Origin: a virus
DNA: 64,000 bases
Reading direction: 5' to 3' (one strand)
Virus record (IMG/VR): IMGVR_UViG_3300033143_006101
Span: 186,001 to 250,000 of that record
The notes beneath the pieces are model-generated. The model did no database searches and had not been told where the DNA came from. It saw only the letters and a program-made list of their open reading frames with translations. The position numbers were made by a program, and so were the translations under genes. This document shows, piece by piece, positions 51,444 to 63,183 of the stretch; the first letter of the stretch is position 1; every line of letters starts with the position of its first letter.

Positions 51444-51584
51444 ATGATAGCATATCAATGTATACGTAAAAGTTGTGGTAAAATAATATCATCTCATGAG
51501 GTCTTAAGAATAAGAAGACCTGATAAAATAACTAAGAAATGTCCTCATTGTAAAGGGCAAGTTAGTAAAATACATGTGAAATAG
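51444..51584 (+). CDS. Zinc-ribbon miniprotein, 46 aa
   Basis: ATG 51444 behind GGAGGGC. Two Cys pairs: QCIRKSCGK and KCPHCKG. The last base of its TAG is the first base of the following tRNA-Ser. Confidence 0.65.
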   Translation: MIAYQCIRKSCGKIISSHEVLRIRRPDKITKKCPHCKGQVSKIHVK

Positions 51585-51670
51585 GAGCGGTGGCAGAGTC
51601 TGGCTAATTGCGTCAGTCTTGAAAACTGAAGGGTGTAACAGCCCCGTGGGTTCAAATCCTACCCGCTCCG
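51584..51670 (+). tRNA. tRNA-Ser(TGA)
   Basis: Acceptor GGAGCGG/CCGCTCC, anticodon loop CTTGAAA within TCAGT/ACTGA, long variable arm, T arm GTGGG-TTCAAAT-CCTAC with wobble. Discriminator G. Confidence 0.95.
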
Positions 51671-51682
51671 AAGGAGAATGAA

Positions 51683-51981
51683 ATGGGGGCAAACGAAAAA
51701 AACCTTGGATCCATCAAGTAGGTCGAGTTGTTGCAAATAATGCAACAGTTGTTTCCGGGGAACAAACTTTTCGATTGGTAGACACGTTAGGAATACCATT
51801 AGAAATCATCCTGGAAAGGTTCGAGCAAGAAAATATTGTAGTCCAGTGGCAAAAGTTTTATGACATGGGACTAAAAGTAGGATGGAACGAACAGACCGTA
51901 ATTGATCGAATGAAGTATGCTATTATTGATATTTATGGTATCCATTATTGGGAAGAAGTAAATAAAAGATTAAGGAGGTAA
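51683..51981 (+). CDS. Hypothetical protein needing a -1 frameshift at A AAA AAC
   Basis: ATG 51683 (AAGGAG 6 nt upstream) opens a frame that meets TAG at 51719 after 12 codons. The heptamer A-AAA-AAC at 51697-51703 sits exactly in that frame; slipping back one base joins a frame open to TAA/TAG near 51981, giving ~99 aa (WIHQVGRVVANNATVVSGE...EEVNKRLRR). No ATG/GTG exists at the head of the second frame; TTG 51775 would give 68 aa. Programmed -1 slip or a one-base error in the A7 run. Confidence 0.5.
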
Positions 51982-52019
51982 TACCATGTTATAGTTAAAT
52001 CCAAGTAAGGAGAAAGATT

Positions 52020-52223
52020 ATGGCACATGGTTACAGGGCTTCCCGGATGTCTAATCATTGTGGGTATGACTATTGGAGTGCTAGAAAGCACAATAGAAAT
52101 ACCCTAAACAAAGCCAGGTGGTTAAGCCCAACAAGGCATAAATATTCTAAAAAGCTTACGTATCGAGAAGAACGAAAGATGAATAAACAAATTATTCAGG
52201 AGGACTTACATGAACTGTATTAA
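52020..52223 (+). CDS. Hypothetical basic protein, 67 aa
   Basis: AAGGAGAAAGATT before ATG. Arg/Lys/His/Asn-rich (SARKHNRNTLNKARWLSPT), probably nucleic-acid binding. Not recognised. Confidence 0.5.
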   Translation: MAHGYRASRMSNHCGYDYWSARKHNRNTLNKARWLSPTRHKYSKKLTYREERKMNKQIIQEDLHELY

Positions 52224-52263
52224 GGAGGTTGGAGTTTTCTGACTTTAATGTTAGGAGGCTCTT

Positions 52264-52554
52264 ATGTTTTACTCTTGGAATAGCTGGACAGGAGAATACG
52301 ACGAACACGATTGTCCTGTTTGGTGGATGTTGAATGATCATATTGGATATTATAGAATCCAACGAACGCAACAAGAAATGACTCGTTGGTACAGAGATTT
52401 AGAAGAACCAGTAAAGCTAAGACAACGGAGAAGTCCAAAAAACTTGAATCCGTGGATCATTGAGACGATCCCTAGTAGATGTTGTTCTAAATCCTGGAAA
52501 GACCTGTATAAAATTCGCAGGCAATGGCAGGCCCCGAAAACTATAGTACGGTGA
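52264..52554 (+). CDS. Hypothetical Trp-rich protein, 96 aa
   Basis: AGGAGGCTCTT before ATG. Trp-rich N-terminus (MFYSWNSWTGEYDEHDCPVW), basic C-terminus. Not recognised. Confidence 0.55.
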   Translation: MFYSWNSWTGEYDEHDCPVWWMLNDHIGYYRIQRTQQEMTRWYRDLEEPVKLRQRRSPKNLNPWIIETIPSRCCSKSWKDLYKIRRQWQAPKTIVR

Positions 52555-60715: not shown

Positions 60716-61159
60716 ATGATTATAACAAATATTGCGATAGCTCTTATAACTATTTTAGTACTTATTGATGTTATATTATTAACCGCTAATATTATGGATA
60801 AAGATAATAATCTAAGTATACTAAGCTGTATTGGTGGAATATTTATAATTGTACTTATTACATGGTTTATGATAGTAGCACCTACATTTAAGGATAGTGA
60901 TAAAGAACTAAAGAGGTTAGAAATGTCATTAATAAAAGAACCAAAAGAAATGACTCTACATTCTTTGAATAAGGAACTAGAAAAATATTATGATGAGCAC
61001 GGTCGTGAATATGGAGAAGAAAGTAAGATATTCTACAAATGTGAATTAGAATTATTTGATAGAATAAGAGAAGCAATTAAAGATGATAGAGAAACTCTAG
61101 TACTATTTGAGTTTACTAGAAAATTTGCTGAGATGAAATCAGCTTGTGCGGGGAATTAG
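60716..61159 (+). CDS. Membrane protein with two transmembrane segments, 147 aa
   Basis: ATG 60716 chosen (GAAGGGTG upstream); GTG 60707 is possible. Hydrophobic residues ~2-24 and ~38-58, then a charged helical tail (LEMSLIKEPKEMTLHSLNK). Function unknown. Confidence 0.65.
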   Translation: MIITNIAIALITILVLIDVILLTANIMDKDNNLSILSCIGGIFIIVLITWFMIVAPTFKDSDKELKRLEMSLIKEPKEMTLHSLNKELEKYYDEHGREYGEESKIFYKCELELFDRIREAIKDDRETLVLFEFTRKFAEMKSACAGN

Positions 61160-61161
61160 AT

Positions 61162-62346
61162 ATGAAAGAATTAATAAATAGACAAATCGATGGTAAAATA
61201 AGTAACGATAATGTAGAAGAATGTAATTCCAGTTATAAGGCAACTATCCTAAAGGGAGCACCCAAAGGACTTGCTGTTTTTGAACAATATGGTAATTTAG
61301 TTCTTAAGCAAATAACACATGATGTTGTTACACAACATACTTTAGATAAAAAATTATTTTTGACTTTTGTGCTACATCTTCCTCTTAGAAATGAAAATTT
61401 AGACGCTTTATTTTTAGAGAAATTTTCTGAGCTAGGAGATGTTTATAGAATGGAAGATGGTTTAATGAGTTATAAAAGTATCGTAGTAGCAAAGGATTTT
61501 ATAATTCGATACGAAAGTGGGGAAAGTACTGTTAAAATAGCTCATATTTATCTTGCTCTGCATGTACAAACACTACAACAAAGAGATATTCTTATTTTAA
61601 AATTAAAGGAATTATTTAAAGATCATATTGTTACTGATATAAATGTAAACGTATCATTTTTTTATCTTACTAAACATGGATTAAAAAATTTAGGTTTTGA
61701 TATGATATATACACCCGAGCTACCCGAAGTAAATTATCCTTACATTTCAATTGATAAAAATGTTAAGGATATGAATGAATATATAGAAAAATATATTAAA
61801 AGTGAATCTCCTATAATTATTCTAATGGGAGAACCTGGAACAGGTAAAACAAGGTTTATTAGATATCTTCTATCAAAGTTAAAATGTCATTATAATGCAG
61901 ATTGGAATGTATATTTCACAGTGGATCCGGAAGTGCTAAAAGACACGGTGTTCTTTGTGAATTTTATGGCTTCTACGTCAAGAGCAATGGTAGTAGAAGA
62001 CATGGATAAAAATCTTCACGCGAGAATAGAAGGCAATGAGGTAATGTATAGTTTACTTGGAATATCTGATGGCATCATAAATATAGAAGAAAAGAAAATG
62101 ATCTTTTCTACTAATCTACCTTCTATAAAAAATATAGACTCGGCTATTATCAGAGAAGGTAGATGCTATGATATTCTAAATTTTAGAGCATTAACTGTAA
62201 ATGAATCAAATGCATTTTTAGCATATAATAAAAAAGGGGATTTAGATTTAGTAAAAGATTCATATACTCTTGCTGAACTATATGCACTAATAAACGGTAA
62301 CCCTAATAATTCTCATATAAGAAAAACAGGATTCAAAAATGAATGA
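61162..62346 (+). CDS. AAA+ ATPase, 394 aa
   Basis: ATG 61162 has GGGGAATTAG upstream. N-terminal ~190 residues are mixed alpha/beta of unknown type. AAA+ core: Walker A GEPGTGKT (~223-230), Walker B RAMVVEDMDKN, sensor-1-like MIFSTNLPS and IIREGRCYDILNF with a candidate Arg finger. Remodelling ATPase of the BCS1/spastin-like kind; the substrate is unknown. Ends overlapping the next gene by 8 bp. Confidence 0.85.
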   Translation: MKELINRQIDGKISNDNVEECNSSYKATILKGAPKGLAVFEQYGNLVLKQITHDVVTQHTLDKKLFLTFVLHLPLRNENLDALFLEKFSELGDVYRMEDGLMSYKSIVVAKDFIIRYESGESTVKIAHIYLALHVQTLQQRDILILKLKELFKDHIVTDINVNVSFFYLTKHGLKNLGFDMIYTPELPEVNYPYISIDKNVKDMNEYIEKYIKSESPIIILMGEPGTGKTRFIRYLLSKLKCHYNADWNVYFTVDPEVLKDTVFFVNFMASTSRAMVVEDMDKNLHARIEGNEVMYSLLGISDGIINIEEKKMIFSTNLPSIKNIDSAIIREGRCYDILNFRALTVNESNAFLAYNKKGDLDLVKDSYTLAELYALINGNPNNSHIRKTGFKNE

Positions 62347-62602
62347 GAATAAACACTGGCAAGTTATGGTAATGCGAAGAAGGTGGTATCATGCTTTATA
62401 CTATTGGTTAAGAAGACTTCGTGGGAGAGATTTTAGTAAAGCTAAAGAGTATTTTGTAGGATTTCATATGAAGATTACAGATGATGGTATAATGGATGAA
62501 CCTACTTGTTCTCATATAGTTGAGACTTTTGAAAGTACACAAGGTTATACGCCTGCTTATGAAACTTTATCAGAAAGAAATAAGGATGTTAAATATGAAT
62601 GA
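62339..62602 (+). CDS. Hypothetical basic protein, 87 aa
   Basis: Overlaps the ATPase end. Arg/Trp-rich N-terminus (VMRRRWYHALYYWLRRLRG), acidic C-terminus. Function unknown. Confidence 0.6.
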   Translation: MNENKHWQVMVMRRRWYHALYYWLRRLRGRDFSKAKEYFVGFHMKITDDGIMDEPTCSHIVETFESTQGYTPAYETLSERNKDVKYE

Positions 62603-62702
62603 TTGGTTGTTAACTATTATAATGCTTATATTAATAGTTATGTGTATTATATTATTAGGTATAGGTGAATTACTTCAAATGATTTTAGTGGTATTGAAAT
62701 GA
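62595..62702 (+). CDS. Membrane miniprotein, 35 aa
   Basis: ATG 62595 overlaps the previous stop (ATGAATGA). Almost entirely one hydrophobic helix (LLTIIMLILIVMCIILLGIG). Function unknown. Confidence 0.5.
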   Translation: MNDWLLTIIMLILIVMCIILLGIGELLQMILVVLK

Positions 62703-62718
62703 AAAGGAGATAATTAAA

Positions 62719-63111
62719 ATGTTAGATGATTTATTACCTCCTATAGGAGGATGTCCAATATCAGTTACTTTATGCAAAGATTGCCGTTATTTGTCTAGTG
62801 GAGGTTCTGAGCCAAGTGTAAACAGTGAAGAGTATAAAGAAGTAAAAAAGAAGTATCCGCATGTACAAAATATGCTGACAAAATATAGAGAGTGTAGTAG
62901 TTTTAATGTAATTTTCAGAATTTTTAATTCTATGGTAAAAAGGTTTTTTGGGGATAAAATACAAACGGTTCTTAATGAAGATGACTATTGGGATTTAAGA
63001 CTTCTACTCAGTTATGCACATTTTGTAAGAACAGGAGAAAAGAGAAAGGATATTGAAGGTCCTGAAAATGAAAATGATCTTGATGAATGTATAGAATGGA
63101 AAAGATTATAA
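62719..63111 (+). CDS. Hypothetical protein, 130 aa
   Basis: AAAAGGAGATAATTAAA before ATG. CPISVTLCKDCRYL near the N-terminus may bind metal; middle helical. Its TAA (63109-63111) directly abuts tRNA-Asn. Confidence 0.65.
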   Translation: MLDDLLPPIGGCPISVTLCKDCRYLSSGGSEPSVNSEEYKEVKKKYPHVQNMLTKYRECSSFNVIFRIFNSMVKRFFGDKIQTVLNEDDYWDLRLLLSYAHFVRTGEKRKDIEGPENENDLDECIEWKRL

Positions 63112-63183
63112 TGCTGGGTAGCTCAGAGGGAGAGCTCGTGTTTGTTAAACACAGGGTCGGCGGTTCAATCCCGTCCCCAGCAG
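63112..63183 (+). tRNA. tRNA-Asn(GTT)
   Basis: Acceptor TGCTGGG/CCCAGCA, T8A9, D arm GCTC/GAGC, anticodon loop TTGTTAA within GTGT/ACAC, T arm GGCGG-TTCAATC-CCGTC. Discriminator G. Confidence 0.92.

Follow-up and report, generated by a model that had tools for sequence, protein, structure and literature searches.

HNH endonuclease genes that end at or within tRNA genes in a phage tRNA cluster

Endonuclease genes in phage tRNA clusters

Endonuclease genes of the HNH and GIY-YIG families are already known from phage tRNA clusters. In phage T4, the free-standing GIY-YIG homing endonuclease SegB is encoded between tRNA-Arg and tRNA-Ile and is linked to the inheritance and amplification of tRNA genes (PMC2988022, PMC13096335). 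Phage T5 harbors the HNH endonucleases F-TflI, F-TflII, and F-TflIV in its tRNA region (Akulenko 2004, cited in PMC3326045). In the tRNA arrays of mycobacteriophage clusters C and M, HNH is the most widespread coding sequence (PMC5966550), and HNH genes have been implicated in the tRNA diversity of cluster M (Pope et al. 2014, cited in PMC5966550). Here we describe a 64,000-nt stretch of viral DNA (hereafter the window; bases 186001-250000 of the 252,876-base viral contig IMGVR_UViG_3300033143_006101), which contains part of a tRNA cluster where open reading frames (ORFs) repeatedly stop at, or a few bases inside, the next tRNA gene. Several of these ORFs are HNH endonuclease genes.

Like SegB, the HNH genes of the window lie inside a phage tRNA cluster, but they belong to a different nuclease family. 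The T5 enzymes share both the HNH family and the location in a tRNA region, and T5-like phages are also the group that supplies the occupied and empty site discussed below; the accessible sources on the T5 enzymes, whose descriptions are the basis of this comparison, mention neither docking at tRNA position +1 nor a stop codon borne by the tRNA. The mycobacteriophage arrays contain direct homologues of the window HNH genes, in HyRo, PegLeg, and LilhomieP, but these arrays have been described without reference to junction geometry (PMC5966550). In the open-access literature we found neither docking at +1 nor stop codons borne by the tRNA reported, and flush docking with a borrowed stop appears to be undescribed there.

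The cluster extends from window position 51230 across the contig junction to approximately contig base 14000, a span of about 29.6 kb, and the window boundary splits it in two. It holds 27 tRNAs or tRNA-like genes on a single strand; a second tRNA locus lies on the opposite strand at 172-173 kb. Both ends of the contig (G000; the end of L044 and the start of L043) carry a 72-nt identical overlap, which implies that the molecule is circular or circularly permuted; the record itself is classed as linear. Three larger relatives were available for comparison: G001 (85% identity), G002 (70%), and G003 (67%). Window features named below lie on the plus strand. Our preferred reading, to which we assign a probability of roughly 0.7, is that the tight junctions of this cluster have two sources: a general compaction of the cluster, and the docking of homing-type HNH genes on tRNAs.

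HNH genes at tRNA starts

Spacing was measured as the gap between the final stop-codon base and tRNA position +1, with negative values denoting overlap, and ORFs were called mechanically under one gene-calling rule throughout. The ten ORF-to-tRNA spacings reported in a first-pass annotation of the window were all reproduced within 1 nt, and its judgment that they are hard to explain by chance was borne out: a stop falls between -16 and +7 for 15 of the 27 cluster tRNAs, against a mean of 1.45 under a circular-shift null (p = 5e-5). Seven further tight junctions lie beyond the window in the same cluster (Gly, -16; a second Gly, +6; His, +3; Trp, -2; Leu-UAA, 0; Arg-ACG, +4; Ile, -4). By the same interval and null, the relatives are similarly tight, with 5/13 tRNAs in G001 (p = 6e-4) and 7/24 in G002 (p = 2e-3). 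Given the excess over the null and the like behavior of the relatives, this spacing is not due to chance. Neither is it unique to the window phage, since ten unrelated phages with tRNA clusters place 26 of their 80 ORF-to-tRNA junctions within the same limits.

Two intact HNH ORFs of the window, 61% identical to each other, end inside tRNA genes. One (53235..53651) overlaps tRNA-Cys (GCA; 53610..53681) by 42 nt; the other (55378..55761) overlaps tRNA-Glu (UUC; 55747..55819) by 15 nt, its TAG stop being tRNA nucleotides 13-15. A genome search recovered a third copy of this subfamily 0 nt before tRNA-Met at 172 kb, and a copy in G001 that overlaps tRNA-Leu(CAA) by 14 nt. The four genomes searched held no further copies, and G002 and G003 had none at all. 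All copies of the subfamily (4/4) are docked, each on a different tRNA. The protein alignment holds until a few residues before tRNA +1 and is dissimilar beyond, because the remainder is read from the tRNA; for the Cys-docked ORF, homology stops at tRNA +1. The HNH nuclease motif is present, with the Pfam HNH model scoring weakly on the window copy (16.5 bits) and above its cut-off in close homologues.

Broken HNH genes, assigned to the family by eye, are likewise placed before tRNA-Asp and tRNA-Phe. The first (59268..59728, in two parts, 59268-59564 and 59579-59728) ends in a TAG that shares its G with position +1 of tRNA-Asp (GUC; 59728..59799), a gap of -1. The second, a frame-shifted remnant (CENC...HDGSYGSGRFCS / LELICPNCHSLT; 52796..53054), has a frame that remains open to nucleotide 36 of tRNA-Phe (GAA; 53019..53092). 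Elsewhere in the cluster, an HNH_3 gene overlaps tRNA-Gly by 16 nt. We gave no weight to the long overlaps at Cys (42) and Phe (36) as signs of design, since two of the three frames through a tRNA are often free of stops and these ORFs simply happen to continue into it.

Docking recurs in other phages. Twenty homologous HNH loci were sampled at points throughout a list of 160 phage records; in 13 of them, the ORF terminates at -32 to +8 nt relative to the start of a co-directional tRNA. These 13 come from phages of Salmonella, Klebsiella, Vibrio, Pectobacterium/Dickeya, Shigella, Stenotrophomonas, Pseudomonas, Gordonia, and Mycobacterium, and the tRNAs beneath them are those for Ala, Val, Lys, Thr, Asn, Glu, Tyr, Leu, Pro, and Cys. 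In six of the 20, the overlap is exactly 10 nt (tRNAs for Ala, Val, Lys, Thr, and Asn), and the TAG or TAA stop is then tRNA nucleotides 8-10, that is, U8-A9-R10. A stop ending at nucleotide 10 is available in 156/291 tRNAs, and one ending at nucleotide 15, in another frame, in 65/291; this availability explains why overlaps of 10 and 15 recur. Across the ten comparison phages, every HNH ORF at an ORF-to-tRNA junction falls within -16 to +10 (11/11), against 22/69 for other ORFs (Fisher p = 2e-5). Exact 10-nt overlaps are found for 6/11 HNH ORFs versus 3/69 others (p = 1e-4), so that six of the nine such overlaps belong to HNH genes.

An occupied and an empty allele of one site can also be compared. 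The T5-like phage SA001 has an HNH ORF before tRNA-Ala, and EC100 lacks it. Their flanking sequences match as far as AGTAAACTA on the left side and match again beginning with TTT/GGGCGAATAG on the right; between them, SA001 carries 389 nt in place of the 5-nt AAGAA of EC100, ending 3 nt before tRNA-Ala +1. The pre-existing tRNA locus supplies the final 13 nt of the SA001 HNH ORF, including the stop. This is a presence/absence polymorphism at a conserved site, found in T5-like phages. At least 80% coverage of the SA001 query was reached by only 7 of 437 matching records, which favors insertion over loss. A second pair, HyRo and Bangla1971, was rejected as an empty site: it is a decayed copy, in which a deletion has taken out most of the HNH gene, docked on tRNA-Thr in HyRo, and left the 3' end in place as the tRNA leader, and it represents a later stage.

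Several points weigh against our interpretation. Taken by itself, the T5 sequence comparison gives no direction of change. Seven of the 20 sampled homologues have no co-directional tRNA at their end, and docking is therefore only a tendency; in Essence, an HNH gene lies against an antisense tRNA. The sampled homologues are not independent of one another, SA001 and MET_P1 representing a single T5-like site, and the HNH labels in the ten-phage comparison rest on motif, on annotation, and for part of them on Pfam.

In our reading, small HNH genes are inserted into tRNA leaders, a few nucleotides ahead of +1, across many isotypes. Many have no stop of their own and use tRNA nucleotides 8-10 (the conserved U8-A9 plus R10), the D-arm nucleotides 13-15, or TA completed by G1. 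The sequences show the docking, the C-termini and stops encoded by tRNAs, the difference between alleles, and the decay of a copy; from these we infer the following mechanism. The encoded enzymes would cut tRNA loci lacking the gene, and repair would then copy it in, as happens with SegB and other free-standing homing endonucleases. RNase P cuts off the 5' leaders of tRNAs. Because it removes any such leader, the tRNA should stay functional after insertion; the docked message would be removed, the tRNA freed, and the insertion rendered nearly neutral, so that RNase P would do for these genes what splicing does for homing genes carried in introns. When the stop is inside the tRNA, a single transcript should yield a complete HNH message or a mature tRNA but never both, and a cut made before translation would leave a non-stop message.

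More broadly, and with somewhat less than even confidence, we propose that these genes may form a widespread class of tRNA-docked mobile HNH genes, rendered harmless by RNase P rather than by splicing, which use the U8-A9-R10 stop and whose precursor becomes either endonuclease or tRNA. Genes that overlap tRNAs resemble annotation errors and may be discarded as such. If the docking rule is true, the tRNA start would be a safe harbor for selfish endonuclease genes in many phages. It would also explain the accumulation of HNH genes and their wrecks in tRNA clusters, as well as the shuffling of tRNA sets, and would predict competition between RNase P and translation on each docked transcript.

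Compaction, cassettes, and punctuation as possible explanations

The tight junctions without HNH genes are ordinary compaction against AT-rich leaders. The leaders have A at -2 in 20/24 tRNAs and at -4 in 19/24, and ATAA or TAATAA also precedes +1 of tRNAs with no flush ORF (Leu-UAG, Met, and the second of a Lys-Arg pair). The leader sequence thus doubles as a stop codon, which explains part of the stop-at-tRNA pattern. Neighboring tRNAs in the cluster are separated by 2-7 nt, and comparable gene packing leaves only 0-7 nt of AT-rich leader—often ATAA, itself a stop—before a tRNA.

In the window, the junctions so explained are diverse in their upstream ORFs. A zinc-ribbon-like ORF (51432..51584, with a Shine–Dalgarno-preceded start at 51444) ends in a TAG that shares its G with +1 of tRNA-Ser (UGA; 51584..51670; gap -1). 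A 46-aa membrane-like ORF (54572..54712) ends 4 nt before giant tRNA-like 1 (54717..54856), which scores 27 bits against the tRNA model, under the 29-bit cut-off, and has a structured insert of about 65 nt in its variable region. A macro-domain-like ORF (56494..56931; Pfam Macro, 20.7 bits against a 22-bit cut-off) stops 5 nt before tRNA-Gln (UUG; 56937..57011), and a 130-aa ORF with no assigned function (62719..63111) is flush to tRNA-Asn (GUU; 63112..63183; gap 0). Two junctions involve relatives of the major capsid protein, whose own gene lies at 42579-43742 and whose product is similar to that of large phages. A full-length paralogue (57631..58740; 28% identity) has its TAG stop at nucleotides 13-15 of tRNA-Thr (UGU; 58726..58810; gap -15), and a fragment (53775..54362; 37% identity) has its stop flush to tRNA-Ala (UGC; 54363..54437; gap 0 by ARAGORN, +1 by Rfam); both sit within the tRNA cluster. 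No close relative of the 130-aa junction ORF, searched for in viral contigs, or of the capsid-like ones turned up, and the window phage therefore offers no readable empty site. The first-pass annotation had raised cassette insertion at tRNA 5' ends as a general possibility. This is supported for the HNH genes by the repeated docking of one subfamily, the independent phages, and the occupied/empty pair; it does not extend to the other junctions, which we read as compaction.

A related but somewhat unlikely account has the endonuclease gene and the tRNA downstream of it moving as one cassette that displaces resident tRNAs, the flush junction being inherited as a unit. The comparison of RoMag with Nappy, in which an HNH gene and a different tRNA begin within the resident tRNA-Thr, fits such cassettes, as do the T5-like tRNA-Ala alleles, which differ among phages at the docking site, and the part ascribed to HNH genes in cluster M mycobacteriophage tRNA diversity (Pope et al. 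2014, cited in PMC5966550). The tRNA of SA001 and EC100, however, is nearly the same with or without the HNH gene, which indicates that an HNH gene can dock alone.

In mitochondria, a message ends where the next tRNA starts, and the first tRNA base completes some of the stop codons. The first-pass annotation had suggested a similar arrangement here, with a single cluster transcript in which RNase P defines mRNA 3' ends and tight spacing is selected accordingly. The geometry is compatible with this suggestion. ORFs of the window phage stop at or inside tRNA starts, in some cases with TA/G1 stops that resemble the incomplete stops of mitochondria, and the cluster is co-directional except for one antisense gene (L043 9195-10151). 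An intrinsic-terminator-like hairpin with a T run (51151..51180) marks its left boundary just 5' of the first tRNA, and a strong intrinsic terminator on the plus strand (L043 14017-14051) marks its right. Strong terminators occur at these two ends only, matches inside the cluster being weak or within tRNA or tRNA-like structures, and promoter matches are at chance level. If the cluster is co-transcribed, RNase P cutting before each tRNA is likely, given read-through transcription and the established action of the enzyme, and would be ordinary.

As an organizing principle, however, tRNA punctuation is not supported, and we consider it unlikely that spacing was selected for it, because most ORFs do not border tRNAs, the partners differ in relatives, and the one junction ORF that can be followed has relatives ending without a tRNA. 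The plus strand of the cluster has 69 ORFs and 27 tRNAs, which make 23 ORF-to-tRNA junctions and 45 ORF-ORF junctions with no tRNA; whereas a mitochondrial-type arrangement has most messages flanked by tRNAs, the majority of these 69 ORFs adjoin none. Neighborhoods are not conserved among relatives: tRNA-Asn is preceded by the 130-aa ORF in the window phage and by a 164-aa ORF in G002, and the partner of tRNA-Asp is a broken HNH gene in the window phage, a 118-aa ORF 36 nt off in G001, and a 90-aa ORF 6 nt off in G002. An all-against-all protein comparison of the three related clusters found no common junction ORFs other than HNH genes. The followed case, a 268-aa ORF flush to tRNA-Leu, has relatives in G001, G002, and G003, all of which end without a tRNA. 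The first-pass annotation had held that unrelated spacing around the same tRNAs in relatives would speak against punctuation; this is borne out in part, in that the partners do differ, but the tightness persists. The apparent resemblance to mitochondria concerns a minority of ORFs and is not conserved in relatives.

Among its tRNAs the cluster also encodes an RF-1-domain (GGQ) protein, a PTH2 peptidyl-tRNA hydrolase, and a GroES-like co-chaperonin (L043 4930-5379, 3711-4247, and 8027-8311, respectively), and the first two could rescue ribosomes on cut messages. In 14 genomes checked, RF-1 is found elsewhere only in HyRo, and PTH2 exceeds its cut-off only in HyRo and VH1, with Klebsiella DP below it. 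Because both are missing from relatives having the same spacing, a general rescue link is disfavored, and we did not adopt it. Further, a cut within the stop codon would yield non-stop messages with no known poly(A) repair, unlike in mitochondria. It is more doubtful still that compaction alone is at work, with ORFs that need no 3' untranslated region ending at the next functional element and HNH genes in no way special: the short tRNA-tRNA spacers, the many short ORF-ORF gaps in the cluster, and the comparably tight relatives all agree with this, but it is already weakened for the HNH subset by the contrast between HNH and other ORFs at the same junction type and by one subfamily repeatedly docked on different tRNAs, together with the allele pair.

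Structured inserts and neighboring features

Four tRNA genes carry a structured insert of 60-70 nt (window 54717-54856, 55076-55220, and 55219-55361; L045 4990-4855, minus strand), with the consensus AACUUGAAC...GUUCC(C)AU...UUACAAGCA. In tRNA-Pro(UGG), at 172.9 kb, the insert lies in the anticodon loop; the 3' exon resumes directly after ACAAGCA, and similarity to phage tRNA-Pro genes starts right after the same motif. By its sequence and position, the insert resembles a small tRNA intron. It matched no family in Rfam, and Rfam families other than tRNA gave no useful match. An exact-pattern scan of viral contigs for the 43-nt element of the giant tRNAs was set aside, as it returned seven chance matches in non-tRNA sequence. 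On the minus strand of L045 (approximately 5135-5000, 4245-4140, and 4095-3930), the same two insert strands occur in swapped order, enclosing a tRNA or a hairpin, which suggests that circularly permuted forms of the element may exist.

On the minus strand of L062 (10693-10290 and 8635-8560), relative G002 carries a cognate element (UUGACC / GGUACGG...GGUUAAC), both inside two giant tRNAs and in freestanding hairpins next to these tRNAs; no other viral contig yielded it. A tRNA-Leu-like gene of G002 (L062 8580-8075, minus) has an apparent insert of about 430 nt in its anticodon loop, which looks group-I-like by eye and matched no Rfam family.

After tRNA-Thr (58811-59270) and tRNA-Asp (59800-60229) come two non-coding stretches of 430-460 nt that are predicted to fold strongly; they have no Rfam match and no similarity to each other. 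In G001, a tRNA with a CUA anticodon (G001:C1:123401-123472, minus), called tRNA-Pyl by ARAGORN and possibly an amber suppressor, has an ORF stop 7 nt upstream. Apparent inteins are present in three ORFs of the window phage: a reductase-like ORF (window 11489-14482), a portal-like ORF (27686-31981), and a thymidylate-synthase-like ORF (L043 599-2404), in the last of which a LAGLIDADG domain was confirmed.

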